A stretch of 64,000 bases of DNA from Gammaproteobacteria bacterium 53_120_T64 (GTDB lineage Bacteria > Pseudomonadota > Gammaproteobacteria > Pseudomonadales > Porticoccaceae): contig MAAT01000028.1 in assembly GCA_002162815.1 (NCBI GenBank), forward strand, positions 1 through 64,000, in the 5' to 3' direction. The notes under the pieces are model-generated. The model saw only the letters and a program-made list of their open reading frames with translations. It searched no databases and had not been told where the DNA came from. Positions 8,322 to 32,010 of the stretch are shown one piece after another; the first letter of the stretch is position 1, and every line of letters starts with the position of its first letter. The position numbers were made by a program, and so were the translations under genes.

Positions 8322-9992
8322 TTATTGCTCCGGTTCTACCGCGCTGCTAATGCGGTTTCGCCCCTCCGCCTTTGCTTGATAGAGTGCCGCGTCGGCTCTT
8401 TGCACCAAAATGTTGCCATCCTCTGCCGGCAAACAGGACACTCCGGCACTAAAGGTACAGCTGAAGTCGCCCTCTGCGCTGTGATGCCGAACCTGGGCAA
8501 AGAGCTCCCGCAATTCGTTCAAAACAACGATGGCCTGGGCCAAAGAAGTATCAGGCAGTATTACAGCAAATTCCTCACCCCCGTAACGGCCGACGATATC
8601 GGAGCGGCGCAAACGCTGAACCAATAGGCGGGAGATGCTCTTAATCACCTCGTCACCCACGGGATGACCGTGCTTGTCATTAACACCCTTGAAGTTGTCG
8701 AGGTCTATCATCGCAAACACGAGATCGGACTGTTGGCGGGCAGCTCGGTAATACTCCGCCTGAAGCGCCGATTTCAAGGTGCCGTGGTTGAGCAGGCCCG
8801 TTAGGGAGTCGACCTCCATACGCAGGCGCAATTTACGGAAGCGCCGAATACGGGAAACCACCGCCGCTACAAGGTGACTGGGGGCGACAGGCTTAGCGAG
8901 AAAATCATCACCACCCAGGCGCAGCGCCTCCATTTGCCGAGCAATATCACTCTCTGTTGAGAGAAAAACAATGGGGATACTCAACCATTCGGTATTTTGA
9001 CGGATAACCGCCGCCGCCTCTAAACCACTGCACTGGGGCATATTGACATCCATTAGGATGAGGTCTGGTTGAAAATCAACAACTAAGCCCATCAGTTTTG
9101 AAACATCTTGTAAGACTTCAACGTCGATGCCCATCTCACGTAAAATCGAGGCATAAGCTTCAGCTAAGACCTCCTCATCATCGACCACGATAACCCGGTA
9201 GGGCTCCTCATCCCAAGACAAACCCACCGCGTCTAGGCTTGCAAATAGCTCACCAAAATCCAGGGGCTTGGTCAGATAAACCACCCCCCCGGCCCGAGCC
9301 GCCGCCAGGCGAGCGCTCCAATCGTCCCGCGCCGAAATAAAGATCAAGGGCACCTTGCCCGGAAAGCGTGCTTGATAAGCTGTAGCCAGCCGGGCGCCGG
9401 CCAATTCGCCCTCCGGTAAATTAAGGTCGACGACCATCGCCGCCGGGCAAGACTCGCCAAGCGCTAGCTCAGCAGCACTACCCGAGCCAAACAGGCGGGT
9501 GCCATACCCGTAGTGGCGTAATTGGTGTTCAATTTCCTCACCCAAAGAGGGGTCATCATCAACGATGTAAACCATTTGCCCACCCAGCGCAGGCCGTGTC
9601 GCCGGTAGGCCCGAATCACTGTGCCCTGCCCCACGGGCAACCACGCCATCGATCACCAAGCCGGCTTTATCGATAAGCGCGGCGATACGCTGATGCTCCC
9701 TGGGTTCACACAGACCTATTGTATCTAGCCTAAGCAGTGCCAGCTCTAGCGCTTTCGCAACCTCGCTAATTTCCATATACCCAAAAGTTCCGCCGGAACC
9801 GGCCAGCTTGTGAGCCGTCATTTTTAACTGCTCAAAGGCCTCCCTCTCTAGAGGGGCATTATCGACATTCGAGTAGGCCTGAAGCCAATGAGCGCGCAGA
9901 GCAGCCAGTTTTCCTGGCAACTGCTCGGTATAACGCAACCGTGCAGTGTGTAGGGCATGCCTTTTTTTTTGTTGGCGCTCAATTTTTTGCAC
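8322..9992 (-). CDS. Hpt-REC-REC-GGDEF diguanylate cyclase response regulator
   Basis: The protein has 556 residues. An Hpt domain (about 20-115) carries phospho-acceptor His61 in MTAHKLAGSGGTFGY. Two receiver domains follow (about 138-255 with MVVDLNLP, and 262-385 with LILMDVNMP). A C-terminal GGDEF domain (about 395-550) has an intact RYGGEEF active site and an RRSD inhibitory I-site five residues before it. It should make cyclic-di-GMP under phosphorelay control with product inhibition. GTG 9992 is the only upstream start and overlaps the preceding receiver gene by 14 bases, with no clear Shine-Dalgarno, suggesting translational coupling. A run of nine A on the coding strand sits just after the start. 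Confidence 0.9.
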   Translation of the reverse strand: MQKIERQQKKRHALHTARLRYTEQLPGKLAALRAHWLQAYSNVDNAPLEREAFEQLKMTAHKLAGSGGTFGYMEISEVAKALELALLRLDTIGLCEPREHQRIAALIDKAGLVIDGVVARGAGHSDSGLPATRPALGGQMVYIVDDDPSLGEEIEHQLRHYGYGTRLFGSGSAAELALGESCPAAMVVDLNLPEGELAGARLATAYQARFPGKVPLIFISARDDWSARLAAARAGGVVYLTKPLDFGELFASLDAVGLSWDEEPYRVIVVDDEEVLAEAYASILREMGIDVEVLQDVSKLMGLVVDFQPDLILMDVNMPQCSGLEAAAVIRQNTEWLSIPIVFLSTESDIARQMEALRLGGDDFLAKPVAPSHLVAAVVSRIRRFRKLRLRMEVDSLTGLLNHGTLKSALQAEYYRAARQQSDLVFAMIDLDNFKGVNDKHGHPVGDEVIKSISRLLVQRLRRSDIVGRYGGEEFAVILPDTSLAQAIVVLNELRELFAQVRHHSAEGDFSCTFSAGVSCLPAEDGNILVQRADAALYQAKAEGRNRISSAVEPEQ

Positions 9993-15284: not shown

Positions 15285-16052
15285 CTACCGGGCAGCGCTA
15301 CCGCCATCCACCGACATTGAGTGGCCGGTGACAAACGAGGCTTGGTCGGAGCACAGCCAGACCGCCGCTTCGGCAATCTCGGAGGGCTTGCCAAGACGGC
15401 CAACCGGCTCCATTTTACGCATCATCTCGTAGCCCTTTTCGGAACCCTTAACGATGCGATTCAACATCGGGGTTTCGATGGCACCGGGGCACACCGCATT
15501 GATGCGAATATCTTTTGTCGCAAACTCTAGCGCCGCCGACTTGGTCATACCAATCACACCGTGTTTAGCCGCCACATAGGCGTTGCCTCTAGGCACCCCA
15601 ACCAAGCCCGCCAGTGAGGAGGTGTTGACAATCGCACCCGCCGAACCCTGACGCAGAAACTGTTCAATTTCATACTTCATGCACCACCAGACACCCTTTA
15701 GGTTGACGGCAATATTCAAATCGAAATTTTCCTCCGTGCAGGTAATGGTTGTCGCCTGGGTATCACCCTCGATGCCGGCGTTGTTAAATGCTGCATCGAG
15801 CTGGCCATATGTGTCCACCGCCGCCTTAATTAACGCTTCGACCTCGGGGCCCTTTGAGACGTCGCACTGCACAAAGCTCGCCTCACCACCGGCCTCTTTA
15901 ACGAGTGCAACTGTTTCTTCACCCCCTGTAATATTGATATCTGAAACCACAACCTTTGCCCCTTCTCGGGAAAAGATTAACGCGGATTCACGACCAATGC
16001 CCGATCCTGAGCCGGTAATAACAACGACTTTATCCTGCATTTTCCCACTCAT
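15285..16052 (-). CDS. SDR family NAD(P)-dependent dehydrogenase
   Basis: The protein has 255 residues, the normal classical SDR length. It shows the cofactor motif TGSGSGIG (13-20), Asp37 after strand 2 in VVSDIN (favouring NAD), NNAG (90-93), and catalytic Ser146, Tyr159 and Lys163. It should oxidise or reduce a secondary alcohol/ketone. GGAG lies six bases before ATG 16052. It is transcribed divergently from the enoyl-CoA hydratase gene across about 200 bases. Together they could perform hydroxyacyl-CoA formation and oxidation, or act on a cyclic alcohol before the Baeyer-Villiger enzyme; the substrate cannot be decided from sequence. Confidence 0.88.
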   Translation of the reverse strand: MSGKMQDKVVVITGSGSGIGRESALIFSREGAKVVVSDINITGGEETVALVKEAGGEASFVQCDVSKGPEVEALIKAAVDTYGQLDAAFNNAGIEGDTQATTITCTEENFDLNIAVNLKGVWWCMKYEIEQFLRQGSAGAIVNTSSLAGLVGVPRGNAYVAAKHGVIGMTKSAALEFATKDIRINAVCPGAIETPMLNRIVKGSEKGYEMMRKMEPVGRLGKPSEIAEAAVWLCSDQASFVTGHSMSVDGGSAAR

Positions 16053-16254: not shown

Positions 16255-17052
16255 GTGAGTATTTCTGGATTAGACGACGACCTGCTGTACGAAAAGAAAG
16301 GCAAACTGGCCTATATGACCTTTAATCGCCCGTCGGAGATGAACTCCATCACCCCCAAAATGCTGGAGGAAATCGACCTAATCGCTGATGATTTCAACAA
16401 TGACAACGAATTACTGGTGCTTATCGTCACCGGTGCCGGCGAGCAGTCTTTTTGTGCCGGCGCCGATTTGAAAAAAACCATCACCAAGTTGACCGAGGAT
16501 GCCGACAAGGGTGAACGCTTTATGAAAGACCCGAGTAAGCGTTTCTTCCACGGTGTTTTCAAGCCCATCATCGCCGCAGTAAACGGTTTTTGTCTGGCCG
16601 GTGGCACCGAAATATTACAGGGTATGGACATTCGCGTCGCGGCGGAGCACGCCCGCTTCGGCCTGCCAGAAGTACACTGGGGGATTATTCCCGGCGGCGG
16701 CTCCCACGTGCGTTTGCCTCGGCAAATACCCTATTGTCACGCCATGGATATTTTACTCACCGGCCGCCAAATCAGCGCCGAAGAGGCTCTGCAATTCGGC
16801 CTCATTAACAAAGTCGTGCCCGCCGACCAAGTGATGGCCGAATGTGAAAAATACGCGGCGATGATTTGTGCCAACGGGCCCTTAGCCGTGCAGGCCGCCA
16901 AAGAGGCCGCCATCAGTACCTACAACATGGGCTGGAGCGAGGCTTTTTCAACGGAGGCGGTGATTGCCGAGCGTATCTTCAAAACCGCCGATGCCACTGA
17001 GGGGCCGAAGGCTTTCGCCGAAAAGCGAAAACCGGTATATCACGGTAAATAA
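16255..17052 (+). CDS. Enoyl-CoA hydratase/isomerase family protein
   Basis: The protein has 265 residues and the crotonase fold. FCAGADL (about 66-72) and NGFCLAGGTE form the oxyanion hole region. Glu139 in LPEVHWGIIPGGG aligns with a catalytic Glu of hydratases, and the following glycine cluster replaces the second Glu region. It should hydrate or isomerise an enoyl-CoA. GTG 16255 is the start, supported by AAGGAG eight bases upstream. It is divergent from the SDR gene and lies upstream of a small exported protein and a Baeyer-Villiger monooxygenase on the same strand. Substrate specificity is unknown. Confidence 0.88.
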   Translation: MSISGLDDDLLYEKKGKLAYMTFNRPSEMNSITPKMLEEIDLIADDFNNDNELLVLIVTGAGEQSFCAGADLKKTITKLTEDADKGERFMKDPSKRFFHGVFKPIIAAVNGFCLAGGTEILQGMDIRVAAEHARFGLPEVHWGIIPGGGSHVRLPRQIPYCHAMDILLTGRQISAEEALQFGLINKVVPADQVMAECEKYAAMICANGPLAVQAAKEAAISTYNMGWSEAFSTEAVIAERIFKTADATEGPKAFAEKRKPVYHGK

Positions 17053-17596: not shown

Positions 17597-19420
17597 ATGA
17601 GCACGACAAAGACTCAAACCATCGACCTCTCGCAACTGAATTTTGACCCCGACACACTGCGGGAAAAATACCGCCAAGAACGTGATAAACGCATTCGCCA
17701 GGATGGCCTCGAGCAATACCAAAAGCCAACGGGCGACTTTACCGGCTATGTTGACGACCCCTATGTTGAGCCCGGCTTTAGCCGAGAAGCGCTCAACGAC
17801 GAGGTCGAAGTGGCGATTATTGGCGGTGGTTTTGGCGGGCTATTAACCGCTGTTCGCCTACGCGAAGCCGGCGTTAAGGACATCCGGATGATTGAAAAGG
17901 GTGGAGACTTTGGCGGCACTTGGTATTGGAACCGCTACCCCGGTGCCCAGTGCGATGTAGAGTCCTATATCTATTTCCCCCTGCTCGAAGAGCTCGACTA
18001 CATTCCCGTGGAAAAATATTCCCACGCCCCTGAAATCTTGGCCCACAGCAAGGCCATTGCCGAAAAATATCAGCTCTACGATAACGCCTGTTTGCAAACG
18101 GAAGTCACCGAAATTCGCTGGGATCAAAACATTTCACGCTGGATCATTGCCACCAACCATGGCGACACAATGAAAGCCCGCTTTGTCGCCATGGCCAACG
18201 GACTACTAAGCCGGCCAAAATTGCCGGGCATACCGGGCATCGATGCCTTCAAAGGCCACACCTTTCACACCAGCCGCTGGGATTACGCCTATACCAAGGG
18301 CAATGCAGAGGGTGGGCTGAGCGGGCTGAAAGACAAACGGGTAGGTATTATCGGCACCGGAGCGACGGCGGTGCAGTGCATACCCCACCTTGGCGCAGCG
18401 GCCAAAGAGCTTTATGTTTTCCAGCGCACGCCCTCGTCGATTGATGTGCGCAATAACGCCACCACAGACCAAAGCTGGGTAGAGACCTTAGAGCCCGGCT
18501 GGCAGCAACAGCGCATGGATAACTTTAATATCATCGCCACCGGTGGGCAGCAAGACGAAGACTTGGTTAACGACGGATGGACGGATATTTTTCGCAACTT
18601 GCAGACCATACTTTCGGCCGCTGGCAATAGTGCGGGCATGTCGCCGAAGGATCAGGAACTGGCAATGGAAATTGCCGACTTCCAAAAAATGGAAGGCGTG
18701 CGAGCCCGTGCTAGTCATATCGTTAAAGATCAAGACACTGCTGAAAAATTGAAGCCCTATTATCGACAATTTTGTAAGCGCCCCGGCTTCCACGACGAAT
18801 ACCTCGATACCTTTAACCAAGACAGCGTGACCTTGGTCGATACCCTGGGCCAGGGCGTTGAACGCATCACCGAAAAAGGCGTTATCGTCGACGGTAAAGA
18901 ATATGAATTAGATTGCCTGATTTTTGCCACCGGCTTTGAAGTGGGCACCAACTACACCAGTCAGTCCGGCTATGACGTGATAGGTAAAGCTGAAACAGCC
19001 CTCAGTAAAAAGTGGGCCAACAGCCTGTCCACCTTTCACGGCATGCACAGCCACAGCTTCCCGAACTGCTATTTCATTGGCTTCACTCAAACCGGCTATA
19101 CCGCCAATGTGCCCCACACCCTCAATGAACAGGCCAAGCACATCGCCTATGTCATTCAATACGGCCTCGATAATGAGGTCACCAGTATTGAGGCATCCCT
19201 CGATGCTGAAGCGGAGTGGGTCGCTACCATCAACCGGCTCGCCGGGATGGGAGAGGAATTCTACGCCCAATGCACACCCGGTTATTACAACAATGAGGGC
19301 AAAGGTAATGGCGGCAATGGCTTCCTCGCCGGCCAATACGGTGGTGGGCCGGTCGAATTCTTTAAGATTCTCGACGACTGGCGCGCTGCTGGTGATTTAG
19401 CGGGGCTAGAGATTCGCTAA
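17597..19420 (+). CDS. Baeyer-Villiger-type FAD monooxygenase (607 aa)
   Basis: The protein has 607 residues. The first Rossmann motif GGGFGG (76-81) binds FAD, FKGHTFHTSRWD from residue 218 matches the Baeyer-Villiger fingerprint FxGxxxHxxxW(P/D), and GTGATAVQ near 254 is the NADP-binding motif. An N-terminal extension of about 70 residues is typical of the cyclopentadecanone/phenylacetone-type or steroid monooxygenase branch. It should insert an oxygen next to a ketone, giving an ester or lactone. AGGA lies seven bases before ATG 17597. A terminator follows. It is the last gene of the run starting at 16255. The ketone substrate is not identifiable; a cyclic one is likely from family habit. 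Confidence 0.9.
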   Translation: MSTTKTQTIDLSQLNFDPDTLREKYRQERDKRIRQDGLEQYQKPTGDFTGYVDDPYVEPGFSREALNDEVEVAIIGGGFGGLLTAVRLREAGVKDIRMIEKGGDFGGTWYWNRYPGAQCDVESYIYFPLLEELDYIPVEKYSHAPEILAHSKAIAEKYQLYDNACLQTEVTEIRWDQNISRWIIATNHGDTMKARFVAMANGLLSRPKLPGIPGIDAFKGHTFHTSRWDYAYTKGNAEGGLSGLKDKRVGIIGTGATAVQCIPHLGAAAKELYVFQRTPSSIDVRNNATTDQSWVETLEPGWQQQRMDNFNIIATGGQQDEDLVNDGWTDIFRNLQTILSAAGNSAGMSPKDQELAMEIADFQKMEGVRARASHIVKDQDTAEKLKPYYRQFCKRPGFHDEYLDTFNQDSVTLVDTLGQGVERITEKGVIVDGKEYELDCLIFATGFEVGTNYTSQSGYDVIGKAETALSKKWANSLSTFHGMHSHSFPNCYFIGFTQTGYTANVPHTLNEQAKHIAYVIQYGLDNEVTSIEASLDAEAEWVATINRLAGMGEEFYAQCTPGYYNNEGKGNGGNGFLAGQYGGGPVEFFKILDDWRAAGDLAGLEIR

Positions 19421-23577: not shown

Positions 23578-25227
23578 TTAGGCCGTTTTTAGGGTGAAAC
23601 CCTCGTAGCCCTTAGAAACAACGTCATTGCACTCTTCGCGATAAGTTTTGGTGCCCGCCAAGTAAGGCATAAAGCCCCGAGGCTTACCCTCAACATTAGT
23701 ACCGAGATACCAAGAATTACAGGTCGGCGCGGTCATCATGGTGCCTTCGGCCGCCTTATTGACATGCTCAACCCAAGCGTCCTGCGCTTCGAGATCCGGC
23801 TCAATAGTGGCGACATTATTATCCACTAAGTGGGCGATACAGTTATCGATCCACTCAACGTGCTGCTCAATAGAGTGCAATACGTTGCTGACGACCGAGG
23901 GGCTGCCTGGGCCGGTAACGGTGAAAAAGTTGGGGAAACCAACACTCTGCAAGCCCATGTACATACGCGGCCCGTCTTTCCAGGTATCGGAAAGCAGAAC
24001 ATTATCGCGACCACGAATATTCAGGCGTTTGATGGTGCCCGTCATGGCATCAAAACCGGTGGCGTAAACCAGGACGTCAAACTCGTACTCGCCATTTTGA
24101 GTTTTCAGGCCGGTCGCTGTGACTTCCTCAACAGCGTTATCACGCAGATCGACAATGGAGACATTGTCCTGCTTAAAAGCCGAGTAGTACTCGGTATCGA
24201 TAACCGGGCGCTTACAGTGTAGGGGGTAATTCTTCGGCGACAGTGCATCGGCCTTTTGATCATTACCAATAAATTCCTGCAAATACTCACGATAAAGTGT
24301 GCAGGCAATTTCATTGGCTTCGGCGTTGTAGTACGTATCGACATACAAGGTCAGTACGTTGACACCAAAATCAGCAATTTCCTGCTTGCGCTGCTCAGGG
24401 GTAATATCCATGATTTTTTTGCTGGGCTTCGCCTTTGGCGCTGCATTTGGATCTTTAGGCTTTTTCGGGCCACGGTAGTTACAGATGCCCATTTCATTAT
24501 TGCGCTGCTGCTCGCGAATATCCGCATAATCGACCTTAGCCTGAGCCAGGAAGTCTGGGTTCATCGGGGCATTTTTAGCCGGGAAGGTATAAACCGGGCT
24601 ACGCTGAAAAGCGATCAGTTCTTTTGCCTGCTTGGCAATCTGGGGGATAGCCTGCACACCGGAAGAACCACAGCCAATAATGGCGACGCGCTTACCGGTG
24701 AGATCAACACCCTCACGAGGCCATTGAGCGGTGTGATAAATGTCGCCCTTGAAAGTGTCGGCATTCTTAAAGCCTGGATAGTTAGGCTCGTTCAGGCAAC
24801 CCGTGGCCATAATGCAGTATTTGGCTTTATAGACGTCGCCCTGGTCGGTGGTAACCGTCCAGATATTGGCCGCTTCGTCATAAATAGCATCGGTGACTTT
24901 GGTGTTAAGTTTAATGTCTTTACGCAGGTTAAAACGGTCTGCGGTGTGGTTCAAATACTTCTCAATTTCAGGCTGGCCGGCCATCACTTCAGACCAATCC
25001 CACTCCTGCTCAAGCTCCTTTGAAAAGGAGAACGAGTATTCAATAATTGGCAAATCGGCACGACAACCCGGATAGCGATTCCAATACCATGCACCGCCAA
25101 CACCAGAACCGGCCTCGATGGTCTGAATTTTCATGCCTCTGTCATTCAAGCGCTTGGTCATGTACAACCCGGCCATACCCGATCCGACAATAACGGCATC
25201 GAGCTCTATAGCTTGTGTATCACTCAT
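23578..25227 (-). CDS. Baeyer-Villiger-type FAD monooxygenase (549 aa)
   Basis: The protein has 549 residues. GSGMAG (15-20) binds FAD, FKGDIYHTAQWP near 160 matches the Baeyer-Villiger fingerprint with the classical final Pro, and GCGSSGVQ near 185 is the NADP-binding motif. It lacks the long N-terminal extension of the other Baeyer-Villiger gene at 17597, resembling cyclohexanone monooxygenase-type proteins, and has a Lys/Pro-rich insert near 270. It should oxygenate a ketone using NADPH and O2. A GGAGG site precedes ATG 25227. It stands alone between a terminator and a peroxiredoxin gene. The substrate is unknown; redundancy with the first enzyme suggests different ketones. Confidence 0.88.
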   Translation of the reverse strand: MSDTQAIELDAVIVGSGMAGLYMTKRLNDRGMKIQTIEAGSGVGGAWYWNRYPGCRADLPIIEYSFSFSKELEQEWDWSEVMAGQPEIEKYLNHTADRFNLRKDIKLNTKVTDAIYDEAANIWTVTTDQGDVYKAKYCIMATGCLNEPNYPGFKNADTFKGDIYHTAQWPREGVDLTGKRVAIIGCGSSGVQAIPQIAKQAKELIAFQRSPVYTFPAKNAPMNPDFLAQAKVDYADIREQQRNNEMGICNYRGPKKPKDPNAAPKAKPSKKIMDITPEQRKQEIADFGVNVLTLYVDTYYNAEANEIACTLYREYLQEFIGNDQKADALSPKNYPLHCKRPVIDTEYYSAFKQDNVSIVDLRDNAVEEVTATGLKTQNGEYEFDVLVYATGFDAMTGTIKRLNIRGRDNVLLSDTWKDGPRMYMGLQSVGFPNFFTVTGPGSPSVVSNVLHSIEQHVEWIDNCIAHLVDNNVATIEPDLEAQDAWVEHVNKAAEGTMMTAPTCNSWYLGTNVEGKPRGFMPYLAGTKTYREECNDVVSKGYEGFTLKTA

Positions 25228-26346: not shown

Positions 26347-27249
26347 ATGAAGGTAAATTTAGCAGACCGAGTCAATAACTTTATCGAGCAGCAACAGCTG
26401 CCACAAACGTATCTCGGCACCATCGCCCAGCACTACCTGCCCCTCGCCCAGTGGATCAACCGGCAGCGAACGCCACAGCAGTGCTACTTTATGGGCATCA
26501 GCGGGGCGCAGGGCACGGGCAAGTCAACATTGAGCGCACTGTTAAAAATCCTTCTCGAACACGAATACGACTGCAACACGGCCACCCTCTCTCTCGACGA
26601 CCTGTATTTATCGCGCACTGAGCGAGAACGGCTGGGGCAAAAAATTCACCCCTTAATGAAAACGCGCGGGGTACCCGGCAGTCATAACGTAGCGCAAGGT
26701 GTGGCGCTGTTTGACGCCCTCAACACTCTGCAAGAGCGGCAGGTTCTCGCTTTGCCACGCTTTGACAAAGCCAATGACGAACCCTTCCCGAAAGCGCAAT
26801 GGCCCGTCATTAGCGGCCCCGTACGGGTGGTACTTTTCGAGGGCTGGTGTGTCGGTGCAAGCGCCTGCGCGGCGGCGGAGTTAGCCGAACCCGTCAACGA
26901 ACTGGAGGCCAAGGAAGACGGCGATGGTAGATGGCGACGCTATATCAATAAGCAGCTAGAGACCCACTACCAAACATTCTTTGCCAGGATGGAGGGGCTG
27001 ATTATGCTGCAAGCACCCGACTTTGCCAGTATTCGGCGCTGGCGTTGGCAGCAGGAAGAAAAGCTGGTGGCAAAACACCCCCCCGGCCAAGGCTCAGCAT
27101 TGATGGACAGGGCCGCTATCGAGCGCTTCATCCAGCACTTTGAGCGCTTAACACGGCAGAATCTCAAGCAATTACCCCCACGCACCGACGTTGTTTTTGA
27201 ACTCGACAAAAACCAAGTGGTAGTCCGCAGCCACTACGCAAAGCCTTGA
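26347..27249 (+). CDS. P-loop kinase, D-glycerate 3-kinase/Tda10-like
   Basis: From ATG 26347 (AAAGG seven bases upstream) the protein has 300 residues; a TTG at 26311 is less likely. The Walker A motif GAQGTGKS is at 53-60, SLDDLYLS follows as the DDFY-like motif, and RGVPGSHN and LPRFDKA match the substrate loop of the plant-type D-glycerate 3-kinase/YggC/Tda10 group. VVLFEGWCVG ends in a Walker B-like region. It probably phosphorylates D-glycerate or a similar small acid with ATP. The gene stands alone; no glyoxylate or glycerate genes are beside it, so the substrate is tentative. Confidence 0.72.
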   Translation: MKVNLADRVNNFIEQQQLPQTYLGTIAQHYLPLAQWINRQRTPQQCYFMGISGAQGTGKSTLSALLKILLEHEYDCNTATLSLDDLYLSRTERERLGQKIHPLMKTRGVPGSHNVAQGVALFDALNTLQERQVLALPRFDKANDEPFPKAQWPVISGPVRVVLFEGWCVGASACAAAELAEPVNELEAKEDGDGRWRRYINKQLETHYQTFFARMEGLIMLQAPDFASIRRWRWQQEEKLVAKHPPGQGSALMDRAAIERFIQHFERLTRQNLKQLPPRTDVVFELDKNQVVVRSHYAKP

Positions 27250-27400
27250 GCACTAGGGAGCGACGGCCCGGTCACTAAACCACACAGGGATGTAAAACAA
27301 AGCCCGTCGATACGTTAGCGCTGGCAGCCCTTGAGTAGAACGCCGAGGACTACCCGCTTTACTGGAGAGCTGCAGACATTCAACGTGCTGACTAGCCCTG

Positions 27401-28561
27401 CTATTTATAAGCAACGCCAATACTCCCAATGGTTTCACGGGTAACGATGGTTTTCATAATCTGCGCGGTACCATCACCGATTTGCAGGCCCATAACATCA
27501 ATCATGCGCTGCATATGGGGCATCTCATGGCCCCAGCCATAGTGACCATGCTGTACCAAGCACGCGTGAATAATATCGGTACCCCACTTCGGTGCCATCC
27601 ACTTCACCATCGCGGCCTCTTTGGTGTGCGGCAAACCTTGATCACGCAGGGCCAGGCCCTGATAGCACAGTGCACGAACGGCGGCGAGACGACTGTCGTG
27701 CTCGGCTAGCGGGAAGGTGGTGCCCTGGAATTTGGCCAGAGGCTTACCAAAGGCCTCACGCTCCTGAATATACTGCCAGGTCTCGTCAACGGAAGCCTGT
27801 GCACAGGCAAGACATTGCAGGGCAATCAGGAAACGGCTGAGGTCAAAGCCCGCCATCACCTTGGTAAAACCTTCACCCTCATTACCCAGCAGTGCCGACT
27901 CTGGGATTTCGACATCATCGAAGAAGACTGAACCGCGACCCACCGAGGATGAGCCGACATCATCAAAGCGGGTACAGGTAACGCCGGGTAAATCGAGGGG
28001 GACTAAAAAGGCGGACACACCGTGGGCACCGGGAGTGTCTTGATCTGTGCGCGCAAACAGCAGAGACATTTCGGCCTGGGCGCCGTAGCTGATCGATGTT
28101 TTCTCACCATTGAGAATGTACTTATCGCCTTTTTTGGTCGCCTTCAGAATGAGATTCGCGGCATCGGATCCACCGCGAGGTTCGGTCAAGCCCAATTGAA
28201 CGATCAGCTCACCCGCCGCCATTTGTGGCAAAACCTCTGCTTTTATTTCTGCACTGCCGTATTTTTCAATCACGCAACCAATCAAAGGCGTGGTCATACA
28301 GATGTAGGCCAAGTTAATATCGGCATAGGCAATGGCTTCACAGATCACGCCTTGGACCATGCTTGTCGCACCAATGCCGCCGTTTTCTTCGGCAAAGATC
28401 GGCGCAATTAGGCCCAACTGCCCCATTTTCCGGAGTAAACCTCGATCCAAGACCTCATCTTTTGAGCGCCCCATATAGCCTTCGGCCAGCTGTTCGCGGG
28501 CAAAGCGCTCGGCGGTATCTTTAATAAAATGCTCTTCTTCACTTAACCACGGCAGGGTCAT
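27401..28561 (-). CDS. Acyl-CoA dehydrogenase with Asp at the usual catalytic Glu position
   Basis: The protein has 386 residues from ATG 28561, chosen because GAGG sits six bases upstream, too close to the first ATG. LGLTEPRGGSDA and the middle-domain and C-terminal helices are those of a true FAD acyl-CoA dehydrogenase. In the C-terminal motif that normally reads EGT, here it is IGDGTAQIMK, so Asp363 replaces the catalytic Glu of medium-chain enzymes. Asp at a catalytic position is known in alicyclic acyl-CoA dehydrogenases of cyclohexane-carboxylate pathways, which makes a cyclic substrate plausible. It lies downstream of an acyl-CoA ligase gene on the same strand, with 145 bases between. 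Confidence 0.85.
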   Translation of the reverse strand: MTLPWLSEEEHFIKDTAERFAREQLAEGYMGRSKDEVLDRGLLRKMGQLGLIAPIFAEENGGIGATSMVQGVICEAIAYADINLAYICMTTPLIGCVIEKYGSAEIKAEVLPQMAAGELIVQLGLTEPRGGSDAANLILKATKKGDKYILNGEKTSISYGAQAEMSLLFARTDQDTPGAHGVSAFLVPLDLPGVTCTRFDDVGSSSVGRGSVFFDDVEIPESALLGNEGEGFTKVMAGFDLSRFLIALQCLACAQASVDETWQYIQEREAFGKPLAKFQGTTFPLAEHDSRLAAVRALCYQGLALRDQGLPHTKEAAMVKWMAPKWGTDIIHACLVQHGHYGWGHEMPHMQRMIDVMGLQIGDGTAQIMKTIVTRETIGSIGVAYK

Positions 28562-28706
28562 AATCATCCTCGTCTATTTACTCTCAAGAAAAGCCAACAC
28601 TGTGCGGGCCTAAATTATTGAATGTTTGTTTGCGGAACAGACTGTATTTTAAGCCATCGTTTGTTCATACAGCCGATACCAGGAATATACCGTTACAAGC
28701 CTATAA

Positions 28707-30350
28707 CTATAAATGGCGGCTAAAATTTTTCGCCATTTCTCGCAACTGAAACTTTTGAATTTTACCGCTGGCGGTGCGGGGCATATCCGGGATGATTTCG
28801 AGATGTTCGGGCAAGTAGTTTTTCGCCAATTGATTTTCGAGCAGATAAGCTATCATCTTCTGAAAGGTCAATTCGATGCCTTCTGTTAATGTCACGAAAC
28901 AGCAGCCCAGCTCACCAAGACGCTCATCGGGCATAGCCACCACCGCGCAATCGACAATATCCGGGTGCTTGTAGAGGAGGTTTTCCACCTCCACCACCGG
29001 GATATTCTCACCACCGCGAATAATAATATCCTTTGAACGGCCGGTAATACGAATATAGCCATCGGCATCCATACGCGCCAAATCGCCCGTATCGAAAAAA
29101 TCATTCTCGTCAACATCGTAGGCTTCGGGACGTTTTAAATAGCCGATAAAGGTTGAGGGGCTTTTTTCCAGTAACCGGCCCTCCCGACCCACCGGTAAAC
29201 TGTTATTTTTCTCATCGACAATCTTTACTTCGCAGGCAGGTACCGCGACCCCATCACTGCCAAAAATTTTTCCAGGTGAATCATTTAATTTGGTTGTCGT
29301 CACTACGCCACATTCACTCATACCCCACACTGCCATCAGCTTTATCGACAATGCCGCTGTGGCTTTTTCGGCCAGAGCACTAGGAATGGGGGCGCCGCCA
29401 CAAACAAACACGCGAAAGCGCTCGGAGTTACAATCTTGCCTTTGTGTCGAGTTGCTTAAATCGGCTAAAAAAGGTGTCGCGCCCATGGCAAAGGAGGCAT
29501 TCTCTTGCGCCATTAATTGCCAGGCAAGATCAACATTCCAGATGTCGAGAAAGATCATTTTTGTTTTCAGCACCATCGGCATCCACATGCCGTACATAAA
29601 GCCGGTTAAATGCGCCAGTGGTGAGCCCATAAAGACATCGTCATCTTGGTTCAGCTCACAGCGCTCTATCATTTTATCGACACTAAACAAGAAGGTATTG
29701 GCACTGTGCATCACCCCTTTCGGCATACCGGTGGTGCCCGAGGTGTACAGCATCAGTACCACATCATTAGGGTGTAGCTGGCGAGCTTTAAACAAAGCCG
29801 CGCTATCGGTACTAAGACTGTGATTCAGCAGGGCCGTAGCAAAACTATTGTCAGCATCACCACCGACCACAAAGACGTGTTCCAAGTGGGGTAGCTTGTC
29901 TCGCATACCCGCAATCATTTGCTCATGATCAAAACCACGAAACTGCTTGGGGACGATCAGCACTTTGGATTCTGCAAAATCGACCATAAAGGACAATTCG
30001 TGTTCGCGAAAAATGGGCATCAGGGGGTTGCTTACGGCGCCGATACGCAGGCAGGCCAGATTAACAGCCACAAATTCCCACCAATTGGGCAATTGAAAAG
30101 ACACGATATCCTGCTTTTCAATACCGTAATGGGCCAGTGCCACCGCTACGCGCTCGGCCTTAGCGGCAAGCTGGCGGTAAGTCATGATGATTTTCTCACC
30201 TGTTTCAGTGCGGTAGTCGACAATGGCTACGGCATCGGGACAAGCCAGCAGCGCTGCGTCAAAATAGTCCAGCAGGTTTTCGTCCCGCCACCAGCCACCG
30301 ATACGCATGGCATCGATTCGTTGTTGCGAAACAATGGGATCAACGATCAT
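28707..30350 (-). CDS. Acyl-CoA synthetase (AMP-binding), alicyclic/aromatic-acid ligase type
   Basis: The protein has 547 residues. The AMP-binding motif MLYTSGTTGMPKG is near 200-212, WGMSECG near 345, and the C-terminal FDTGDLARMDADGYI, GRSKDIIIRGGENI and the Lys in ASGKIQKF close the active site. It should activate a carboxylic acid to its CoA thioester via an acyl-adenylate. The N-terminus (RIDAMRIGGWWRDE) recalls, from memory, cyclohexanecarboxylate-CoA ligases, though the substrate is unproven. GGAG precedes ATG 30350 by seven bases. With the dehydrogenase downstream it forms an activate-then-dehydrogenate pair. Confidence 0.85.
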   Translation of the reverse strand: MIVDPIVSQQRIDAMRIGGWWRDENLLDYFDAALLACPDAVAIVDYRTETGEKIIMTYRQLAAKAERVAVALAHYGIEKQDIVSFQLPNWWEFVAVNLACLRIGAVSNPLMPIFREHELSFMVDFAESKVLIVPKQFRGFDHEQMIAGMRDKLPHLEHVFVVGGDADNSFATALLNHSLSTDSAALFKARQLHPNDVVLMLYTSGTTGMPKGVMHSANTFLFSVDKMIERCELNQDDDVFMGSPLAHLTGFMYGMWMPMVLKTKMIFLDIWNVDLAWQLMAQENASFAMGATPFLADLSNSTQRQDCNSERFRVFVCGGAPIPSALAEKATAALSIKLMAVWGMSECGVVTTTKLNDSPGKIFGSDGVAVPACEVKIVDEKNNSLPVGREGRLLEKSPSTFIGYLKRPEAYDVDENDFFDTGDLARMDADGYIRITGRSKDIIIRGGENIPVVEVENLLYKHPDIVDCAVVAMPDERLGELGCCFVTLTEGIELTFQKMIAYLLENQLAKNYLPEHLEIIPDMPRTASGKIQKFQLREMAKNFSRHL

Positions 30351-30413
30351 CTAATTCTCCAACTCTGTATAGCGCATAAGCGCCTTTTATTTATTGTTAT
30401 TGAGCGTGGACTA

Positions 30414-30950
30414 CTATTTCAGGAAATGCTGCCGATAGTATTTCAGCTCTGCTATCGAGTCGAGAATATCATCCATCGCCAAGTGACTGGCTTTCTTTTT
30501 AAAGCCTTTTAAGATTTCAGGACGCCAGCGTCGAGCCAGCTCTTTAATACTACTGACATCGAGGTTGCGGTAGTGAAAATAGTCTTCAAGTAATGGCATT
30601 TCTCGCGCCATAAAGCGACGGTCCTGACAGATGGAATTGCCACTCATCGGCGACTTGCCAGCACCCACCCAATGGCGAAGGAAATCAATCGTTTGTTGCT
30701 CCGCATCTGCCGCACTCAGGCTGCTGTTGGCAACTCGCTCAATCAAGCCGGATTGGCCGTGCTGGCGAGTATTCCATTCATCCATCGCCCCAATCACCTC
30801 ATCGGACTGATGGATGGCCAATATCGGCCCCTCCGCTAAGGTGTTGAGCTCAGAATCCGTTACCAAGGTGGCGATCTCAATGATGTGGTCATTGTCGGTA
30901 TCGAGCCCGGTCATTTCCAGGTCTATCCAGATTAAATTAAGGTCGTTCAT
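30414..30950 (-). CDS. orn: Oligoribonuclease
   Basis: The protein has 178 residues from ATG 30950, with AAGGA six bases upstream; the longer frame to 30998 is not needed. The DEDD-family motif [10 protein letters not shown] carries Asp10 and Glu12, and the C-terminal [11 protein letters not shown] carries the His and last Asp. Orn degrades di- to penta-ribonucleotides, including pGpG from cyclic-di-GMP turnover, to mononucleotides. It overlaps the end of the MscS gene by 14 bases, so it may be translationally coupled, and faces rsgA further upstream as in pseudomonads. Confidence 0.97.
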
Positions 30951-32010
30951 GTTGTTCCTTTTGCTGATTGGATCGCGCCTTGTCAATAATATTTTCAAGT
31001 GACTTTATGCGCTCGCCAGCCTCTTGAATACGTAATTTTAGTTCCACCTGTTGTTCTTTGCTGACATCCCCCAACAATGACTTATGTTCAGCTATTGTCC
31101 TTTGCAGACGGATAACATCATCGAGTAATGTTCGGACCTTGACGACCTTTTCGGCCTTATCAAAAATTTTTGACTCCGGGGAAAACTCGCTACTTTCGTT
31201 GTCATTGGCGTACTTCGGCGGCGCACTAAAAACCTGCTGAGCCGGCAGCTGCCTTTGATTGATAAAATTCGGTGAGACAATTTCGATGCCAGCGCCGTGA
31301 AGCTGATCGAGCACGGCTTTTTTCAAGCGGGAGCGCTGGGTTAACAGTTGATTAACATCGCTACAAATACCCCCCGTTTTATACAGAATGGCAAAGTCTC
31401 CCAGCGTCAAAATTTGTACAAAGGGCTCATCTAGGCCCGCCTCCTGAGCCGCCAGTATTAACAAAGGTTCAACTTTGTGCCAGGCGACATCGTAACCGAG
31501 GGAGACTTCACAAGAGGTAAAGGTGCCCGAGGAGCGCACCACCGTCAGAGCTTGGGTGGTTAGATAAAGATTCGGCAGTGTTATGAGGTCCCTTTCCTCG
31601 GATTGAATTTCGGTGTGAAAAAGGCCACTCACGGTGACCCGCCCAAAATGCTCACCAACACGGACAAAATCACCATGTCTAAAACTTTTCACCGAGCGCA
31701 GCATAAACCCCGCCATCGCGTTGGCGACAAAAGTCGTGGAAGACAAGGCAAAAATCCCGGTAAAAACCAGACCCAATAGACTCAGTAAATCACCCTTTGT
31801 CGCCTCGCCAACAGGTAGCGTGAGAACCAGTAAAATGACCGCAACGCCTGTCAGACTCATTAGCAGCAACTGACGCCTGATGGACGAAACAGCGCTGCCT
31901 TGGCGACGAATCAATAGCCAGTGTGACACCGACAGTACTACGAGACATGCAGCGAGCATTGCCAGTAGCGGCAGATAAAGCCGAAATGTGTCTAAACTGA
32001 GCTCAAACAA
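30937..32010 (-). CDS. MscS family mechanosensitive channel
   Basis: The protein has 357 residues. Three or so hydrophobic helices (about 10-110) end in the pore helix, followed by the MscS beta domain with [20 protein letters not shown] and LPNLYLTTQ, and a C-terminal coiled coil rich in Glu/Lys (about 290-350). It should open under membrane tension and release solutes during hypo-osmotic shock. The frame starts at TTG 32010 with GGAGG about ten bases upstream. It overlaps orn by 14 bases and is divergent from rsgA. Confidence 0.88.

Follow-up and report, generated by a model that had tools for sequence, protein, structure and literature searches.

How a bacterium uses an acyl-coenzyme A (acyl-CoA) ligase and an acyl-CoA dehydrogenase encoded side by side, and on which acid, is the question raised by a 64-kb stretch of DNA (here called the window) from Gammaproteobacteria bacterium 53_120_T64 (Porticoccaceae), contig MAAT01000028.1 of assembly GCA_002162815.1. 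The genome (G000) comprises 2.95 Mb in 76 contigs and is 93.56% complete, and the pair lies on the contig that we call C51. A preliminary description had noted both genes and read them as the activation and dehydrogenation steps for a ring acid, and both reading frames are indeed present and open. We propose that the pair very probably activates and desaturates a cyclohexane-type acid, an assignment that family, motif and co-occurrence support well at the level of sequence. Moreover, we hold with moderate confidence that the pair provides the entry steps of a pathway for alicyclic acids, completed by enzymes encoded at a second locus, on contig C36. The features at the pair are as follows.

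27401..28567, minus strand: AliB2, acyl-CoA dehydrogenase with Asp as predicted base, in the cyclohexanecarboxyl-CoA dehydrogenase family but of another lineage than the AliB of the bad cluster; open reading frame, 388 amino acids (TIGR03207, tree, fold)
27473..27475, minus strand: codon of Asp365, predicted catalytic base in the GDGT motif, preceded by Gly364 (alignments)
28707..30350, minus strand: AliA-type acyl-CoA ligase; open reading frame, 547 amino acids (TIGR03208, tree)
30414..30953, minus strand: gene resembling oligoribonuclease (orn; name given by eye) on the upstream side of the ligase gene; a syntenic anchor outside the pathway

The dehydrogenase belongs to the AliB family. TIGR03207 (AliB) was the best of 17 NCBIfam models over the full length, at 489.7 bits against 245.4 for the next best. 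A careful tree was built from 57 of the 110 available AliB sequences (the 108 of a quick tree plus two), picked by hand; 55 of them formed the AliB family (100/100), the remaining two were other dehydrogenases of the window's genome, and the window's protein fell in a 14-member clade inside the family (100/99), which we named AliB2. The quick tree of 108 sequences agreed, with six other dehydrogenases of the same genome falling outside the AliB family. Next to the AliB2 clade (95/97) stands a form, L168, that is located in a badK-badI-badH cluster. AliB2 is 96 to 98% identical across five members of the genus and 52% identical to a second AliB of its own genome (AliB1). Finally, an AlphaFold model made from 11 sequences (mean predicted local distance difference test score [pLDDT], 76.7; predicted template modeling score, 0.81) has the acyl-CoA dehydrogenase fold, with a template modeling score of about 0.85 to solved structures.

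The residue predicted to act as the base of AliB2 is an aspartate. Near the C terminus the protein reads QIGDGTAQIMK. Counted from the first ATG, its Asp is number 365; a start at Met3, a residue shared by all 11 aligned sequences, would make it 363, the number under which the preliminary description had correctly placed it at the position of the medium-chain Glu. In alignments with solved acyl-CoA dehydrogenases (e.g., 4l1f and 4u83), Asp365 falls on the catalytic Glu of their QIYEGT motif, Gly364 sits where medium-chain enzymes have Tyr, and the Gly-Asp pair is invariant in 11 aligned sequences. The Asp is kept in 102 of 102 AliB-family sequences, near-copies included (99 GDGT, 1 GDGP, and 2 ADGT), a set of which part was collected by two scan patterns, one requiring QIGDGT, and is therefore partly selected for Asp, while the members from profile searches are not. 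No Asp was found at that position in six other dehydrogenases, all from the window's genome. An alternative Glu, which the preliminary description had named as a danger to its reading, is missing from the aligned position, where Ser244 aligns with the Gly of short-chain acyl-CoA dehydrogenase-type chains; we take this site to be the place of the Glu of isovaleryl-CoA dehydrogenase. The structural side of that check reached the fold only: residues 363 to 388 of the model, which include the Asp loop, have pLDDT values below 50, and the assignment of Asp365 as the base thus remains an argument from sequence. Our literature search found no passage on the Asp of Rhodopseudomonas palustris AliB. In the 1,4-acting cyclohexenecarboxyl-CoA dehydrogenase, the Asp that is used lies at a different position.

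The ligase is of the AliA type. A likeness to cyclohexanecarboxylate-CoA ligases had been seen at its N terminus, and the resemblance in fact runs the whole length: TIGR03208 (AliA) was the best NCBIfam profile, with 688.5 bits over residues 4 to 538, and the next best model reached 492.9. In a tree of all 51 sequences that passed the length and identity limits, identical copies removed, the window's ligase and the AliA proteins of bad-ali clusters formed a group of 40 (99/95) inside one of 41 (100/100), and six other ligases of the window's genome branched away. The comparison sequences for AliA and AliB came from bad-ali clusters of bacteria other than R. palustris. Both members of the pair therefore branch with the ring-acid enzymes instead of with linear acyl-CoA enzymes, the placement that the preliminary description had said would defeat its idea. 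No second AliA-type ligase was found in the assembly, where the next best protein scored 286.9 bits. Lys530 and the YTSGTTG loop, which we presume to be catalytic, are invariant in nine aligned sequences. As a separate observation, another AliA-type ligase, 47 to 48% identical to the window's, occurs in G004, G006, and G034 (L097:8800-10539, L098:8810-10453, and L099:8167-9813) and forms its own clade (100/100); two hydratase-like genes lie nearby in G004 and G006.

The pair is conserved in place and co-occurs with BadI. Ten related genomes, in addition to that of the window, have aliA and aliB2 adjacent (62 to 98% identity), which speaks against a chance arrangement, and an orn-like gene lies beside the pair in nine of them (G001, G002, G003, G005, G006, G010, G017, G021, and G030); in the stretch from the tenth, G034, an orn-like gene was not detected. 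(Labels such as orn, rsgA, prx, glxK, mscS, and BVMO1 were assigned either by eye or through BLAST against genes so labeled.) In G057, aliA and aliB2 occupy separate contigs, and in G027 (C68:127211-129027) aliB2 is the immediate neighbor of orn, with aliA missing from between them. Among 58 genomes, the window's own included, BadI was present at an E value of ≤1e-100 in 15, and all but 2 of these also had AliB2 (13 genomes), which none of the 43 genomes without BadI carried (Fisher test, 3e-11 by genome and 1e-4 by genus, with shared ancestry not removed from either value). The two genomes with BadI and no AliB2 differ in kind. In G055 the genes, AliA included, form one cluster of the classical kind. 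G004 has no orn match either, so the pair locus may be unassembled there, which weakens G004 as a counterexample. Five of seven further genomes with AliB2 or the L168 form have a BadI of 431 to 476 bits, both Cycloclasticus genomes included, and six of the seven have an AliA-type ligase. (G058 and G059 proved to be G003 and G006 again, with the same contig places and scores, and were counted once; G067 carries AliB, not AliB2.) In a control set of 14 genomes, searched at E values of ≤1e-100 for AliB and BadI and ≤1e-95 for AliA, none matched AliB, and one, Escherichia coli, matched AliA, below the cut-off of the model.

Where the rest of the pathway might be encoded is suggested by contig C36. 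It carries AliB1 (about 548.1 bits) beside BadK-, BadI-, and BadH-like genes, with a MarR-like gene (named by eye) divergent from the row aliB1-badK-badI-badH and no aliA in the cluster. BadI was by far the best model for the BadI-like protein, at 455.6 bits, just under the cut-off of 467.6; the hydratase occupies the BadK position, with no BadK model among the 25 matches listed. The inverted repeat GTATTATTGATTGTCATAATAATAC lies between the MarR-like gene and aliB1 (L025:13140-13164, in the C36 stretch) and is an operator candidate that, judged by eye, relatives conserve only loosely. The ali and bad genes are unlinked in the window's genome, and the split is repeated in relatives. In one Cycloclasticus genome, the AliB of a BadK-BadI cluster exceeds the cut-off (601.9 bits), and aliA-aliB2 is on another contig; in the second, a cluster of that kind holds a truncated AliB copy interrupted by one stop, and the pair is again on another contig. 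In G034, AliB1 had no match, and the BadI contig there is 6.8 kb long. We note also five tandem acyl-CoA dehydrogenase-like genes near the bad cluster (L025:16111-19694 and G000:C36:72192-78078), three of which were compared and are kept in members of the genus.

In the proposed route, the AliA-type ligase would use ATP to make the CoA ester of a cyclohexanecarboxylate-like acid, either free cyclohexanecarboxylate or an alkyl-substituted naphthenic acid. Asp365 of AliB2 would then remove the alpha proton while the beta hydride passed to flavin adenine dinucleotide and on to electron-transfer flavoprotein, and the product would be a ring-1-ene-1-carboxyl-CoA. Hydration, oxidation, and hydrolytic opening by the BadK-, BadH-, and BadI-like enzymes of C36 would yield pimelyl-CoA or a substituted form of it, both loci serving one pathway. 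The presence of two AliB lineages in one genome suggests that they act on different ring acids or isomers.

Several observations weigh against this reading. Both proteins of the pair score below the equivalog cut-offs of their models (489.7 bits against 575.35 for TIGR03207 and 688.5 against 792.3 for TIGR03208). AliB1 of the bad cluster likewise falls below the TIGR03207 cut-off, none of 11 genomes compared passes that of TIGR03208, and one with a bad-ali cluster reaches 791.8. A second model for cyclohexane-carbonyl-CoA dehydrogenases, NF043006, gave the dehydrogenase 166.5 bits, with a cut-off of 650. Solved dehydrogenases that resemble the proposed AliB2 in acting on cyclic acyl-CoA substrates are not close to it either: 7xp7, named as a cyclohexanecarboxyl-CoA dehydrogenase, and 7p98 scored 127.2 and 128.4 bits, and the best chain 207.1. 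(PDB entry 7p98 is listed under a short-chain name, and we take it to be a cyclic acyl-CoA enzyme.) At the second locus, the BadI-like protein also scores 328.8 bits with the MenB model, and the short-chain dehydrogenase/reductase (SDR) has BadH as its best model but weakly, at 214.5 bits with a cut-off of 431.2. The BadI threshold is not wholly specific, as one of the 14 control genomes, Bacillus subtilis, passed it with a match below the cut-off of the model. The two loci are, moreover, unlinked, and no common regulatory site was found for them. The published BadR operator CAAN4TTG has no copy in positions 9000 to 14500 of L025, and its four copies in window positions 27000 to 32000 are all within genes, with none in the gaps beside the pair, so a shared BadR operator joining the loci was rejected; the repeat GTATTATTGATTGTCATAATAATAC has no copy in the window, where the best match has 8 mismatches in 25. 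Finally, the components do not always travel together. G060 and Polycyclovorans (G064, 265 bits) have AliB2 without a strong BadI, and in G065 and G027 AliB2 is present with no AliA-type ligase match at an E value of ≤1e-95; in G027 it may be used with another activating enzyme.

A further point against a dedicated cyclohexanecarboxylate pathway is the company that AliB2 keeps in some hosts, which is also a ground for supposing a terpenoid acid as the substrate, whether cyclic (perillate or 4-isopropylcyclohexanecarboxylate) or 3-methyl branched and acyclic (citronellate). In Cycloclasticus L120:172-12636, AtuC-, hydratase-, AtuF-, and AtuA-like genes are followed in a row by aliA-aliB2, the Atu names being ones that we assigned by eye and presume to be right. 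In Polycyclovorans L122, AliB2 again lies near AtuC-, AtuA-, and AtuF-like genes. Citronellate ligase and citronellyl-CoA dehydrogenase keep similar company in atu operons. Other AliB lineages, mostly of Burkholderiales, form a row of AliB, a BadK-like hydratase, and a biotin-dependent carboxylase at 27 of 80 loci, a hand count that includes some near-copies and loci truncated at contig ends. A gene like that of 3-hydroxy-3-methylglutaryl-CoA (HMG-CoA) lyase is present in 20 of these 27 rows, the carboxylase subunits of which are 37 to 45% identical to AtuC and AtuF of L120 (e.g., L131:8001-16173, L136:7995-14592, and L166), and the arrangement looks like a pathway for a ring or branched acid. 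Siccirubricoccus L137 and Paeniroseomonas L141 each have AliA, AliB, and BadI- and BadH-like genes in one region together with genes for carboxylase subunits, a hydratase, and an HMG-CoA-lyase-like protein, a set that may serve cyclic terpenoid acids. Moreover, PMC4109377 describes a limonene pathway in which the ring is cleaved by Bad-like steps.

Within the window genome's own family, terpenoid chemistry of the Atu kind finds less favor. AtuA had no match at an E value of ≤1e-60 in the 12 AliB2 carriers of that family, G000 included, so the terpenoid route is less likely there, with substituted ring acids kept as candidates. In these genomes AliB2 is accompanied by BadI and not by AtuA. The thirteenth carrier, G057, is of another family and has an AtuA match, beside a more distant AliB-like gene; AtuA does occur in other genera of the window genome's family, which lack AliB2. 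Among the 12 carriers, the best carboxyltransferases are 43 to 46% identical to that of L120 (the two of G000, 45% and 42%), versus 48 to 54% in 16 of 17 AtuA-bearing genomes. The second Cycloclasticus has its pair (L121) without Atu-like neighbors. We therefore disfavor an acyclic terpene role in the 12 carriers, where AtuA is missing, and retain terpenoid acids in general as a rather unlikely rival substrate.

The two contexts can be accommodated in a broader proposal, which we put forward tentatively as a possibility. In marine gammaproteobacteria that degrade hydrocarbons, AliB2 with AliA may make up a functionally separate module for desaturating ring acids, retained alongside a second AliB and specific for substituted cyclohexanecarboxylates, naphthenic or terpenoid. 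Its product would pass to ring opening of the BadI type or, in other hosts, to chemistry of the geranyl-CoA-carboxylase type, and the classical bad-ali scheme would not account for such a route for ring or branched acids.

A less probable alternative, which we doubt, is that the pair is a diverged copy serving a linear or simply branched fatty acid and that the Asp is a family relic. The scores under both equivalog cut-offs, the distance of the pair from the ring-cleavage genes, and the presence of AliB2 without AliA in G027 and G065 would fit such a copy. Its difficulty is the degree of constraint: identity of 96 to 98% in five genus members, Gly-Asp throughout 11 sequences, and Asp in every AliB-family member are hard to square with a relic, the trees put the pair far from the genome's other dehydrogenases and ligases, and BadI co-occurs with it.

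The preliminary description had also supposed that the next steps are encoded nearby, by an SDR gene and a hydratase gene at 15.3 to 17.1 kb. Those genes and two other neighbors are listed here.

15285-16052: SDR; best model PRK06172, 341.4 bits, over the cut-off of 336
16255-17052: hydratase; best model EchA19, 296.7 bits, cut-off 400
17597-19420: flavin monooxygenase-like gene (named by eye)
23578-25227: flavin monooxygenase-like gene, most similar to phenylacetone monooxygenase (552.5 bits), with cyclohexanone monooxygenases more distant

A local pathway of this kind is very improbable, since for all that the two genes share the 64-kb window with the pair, and that the hydratase lies near the pair in two stretches from the genus (G002 and G006; others are shorter or different there), both proteins match other models best and are only 28 to 33% identical to the BadK- and BadH-like proteins of the set already present on C36, and we rejected them as BadK and BadH on these grounds. 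What stands of the ring-acid set first described is thus the pair itself, placed in the AliA and AliB lineages by profile and tree and co-occurring with BadI, and not its partners in the window. The monooxygenase-like gene at 23578-25227 is found near aliA-aliB2 in four genus members.

How the proposed two-locus pathway compares with known systems can be judged from the available portions of their descriptions. The bad-ali genes of Aromatoleum are described as serving both aerobic and anaerobic use of cyclohexanecarboxylate, with pimelyl-CoA as the product (PMC9795900). As far as that text sets them out, the clusters of R. palustris and Aromatoleum sp. CIB share with the window's genome a ligase of the AliA type, a dehydrogenase of the AliB type, BadK-, BadI-, and BadH-like enzymes, and a divergent MarR gene; the window's genome differs in having two unlinked loci with aliA in one, a second and distant AliB lineage, an SDR that is a weak BadH, and no BadR operator motif found. 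The chcpca cluster of Rhodococcus aetherivorans BCP1 is alike in that the accessible part of PMC5906575 assigns aerobic naphthenic-acid use to badI, badH, aliA, and aliB; it differs in being one cluster, which also holds TetR regulators and a gene for glutaryl-CoA dehydrogenase. The mrc genes of Castellaniella defragrans are alike in the BadK/BadH/BadI-like opening of a cyclohexenecarboxyl-CoA ring, and they differ in that, in the text available, the ligase is GeoC and the starting acid already has its ring double bond (PMC4109377), from which we infer that the route proposed there needs no AliB step. Finally, ThnO, a 2-carboxycyclohexylacetyl-CoA dehydrogenase, shares with AliB2 the Gly in place of Tyr before the catalytic acid, a substitution explained in the accessible text by an alpha-substituted ring substrate; ThnO differs in its catalytic Glu363 instead of Asp and in its dicarboxylic ring acid substrate (PMC11659651).

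The bad-ali pathway is known; what is new here is the split of the loci and the presence of two AliB lineages in marine gammaproteobacteria. A literature search with limited sets of terms found no title or abstract opening that concerns, for these bacteria, either a second lineage of AliB or a split ali-bad pathway. Because AliB lineages stand in carboxylase rows, the family probably reaches beyond cyclohexanecarboxylate, and the AliB profile, spanning related enzymes from carboxylase operons, would cover more than that one substrate. Alicyclic acids are a toxic fraction of crude oil and of oil-sands water. If our reading is correct, uncultured marine gammaproteobacteria, including Cycloclasticus, would have a two-locus bad-ali pathway with two AliB lineages, and the split would let it escape searches for intact bad-ali clusters. 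Ultimately, the arrangement raises the question of what the second AliB does beyond the first.

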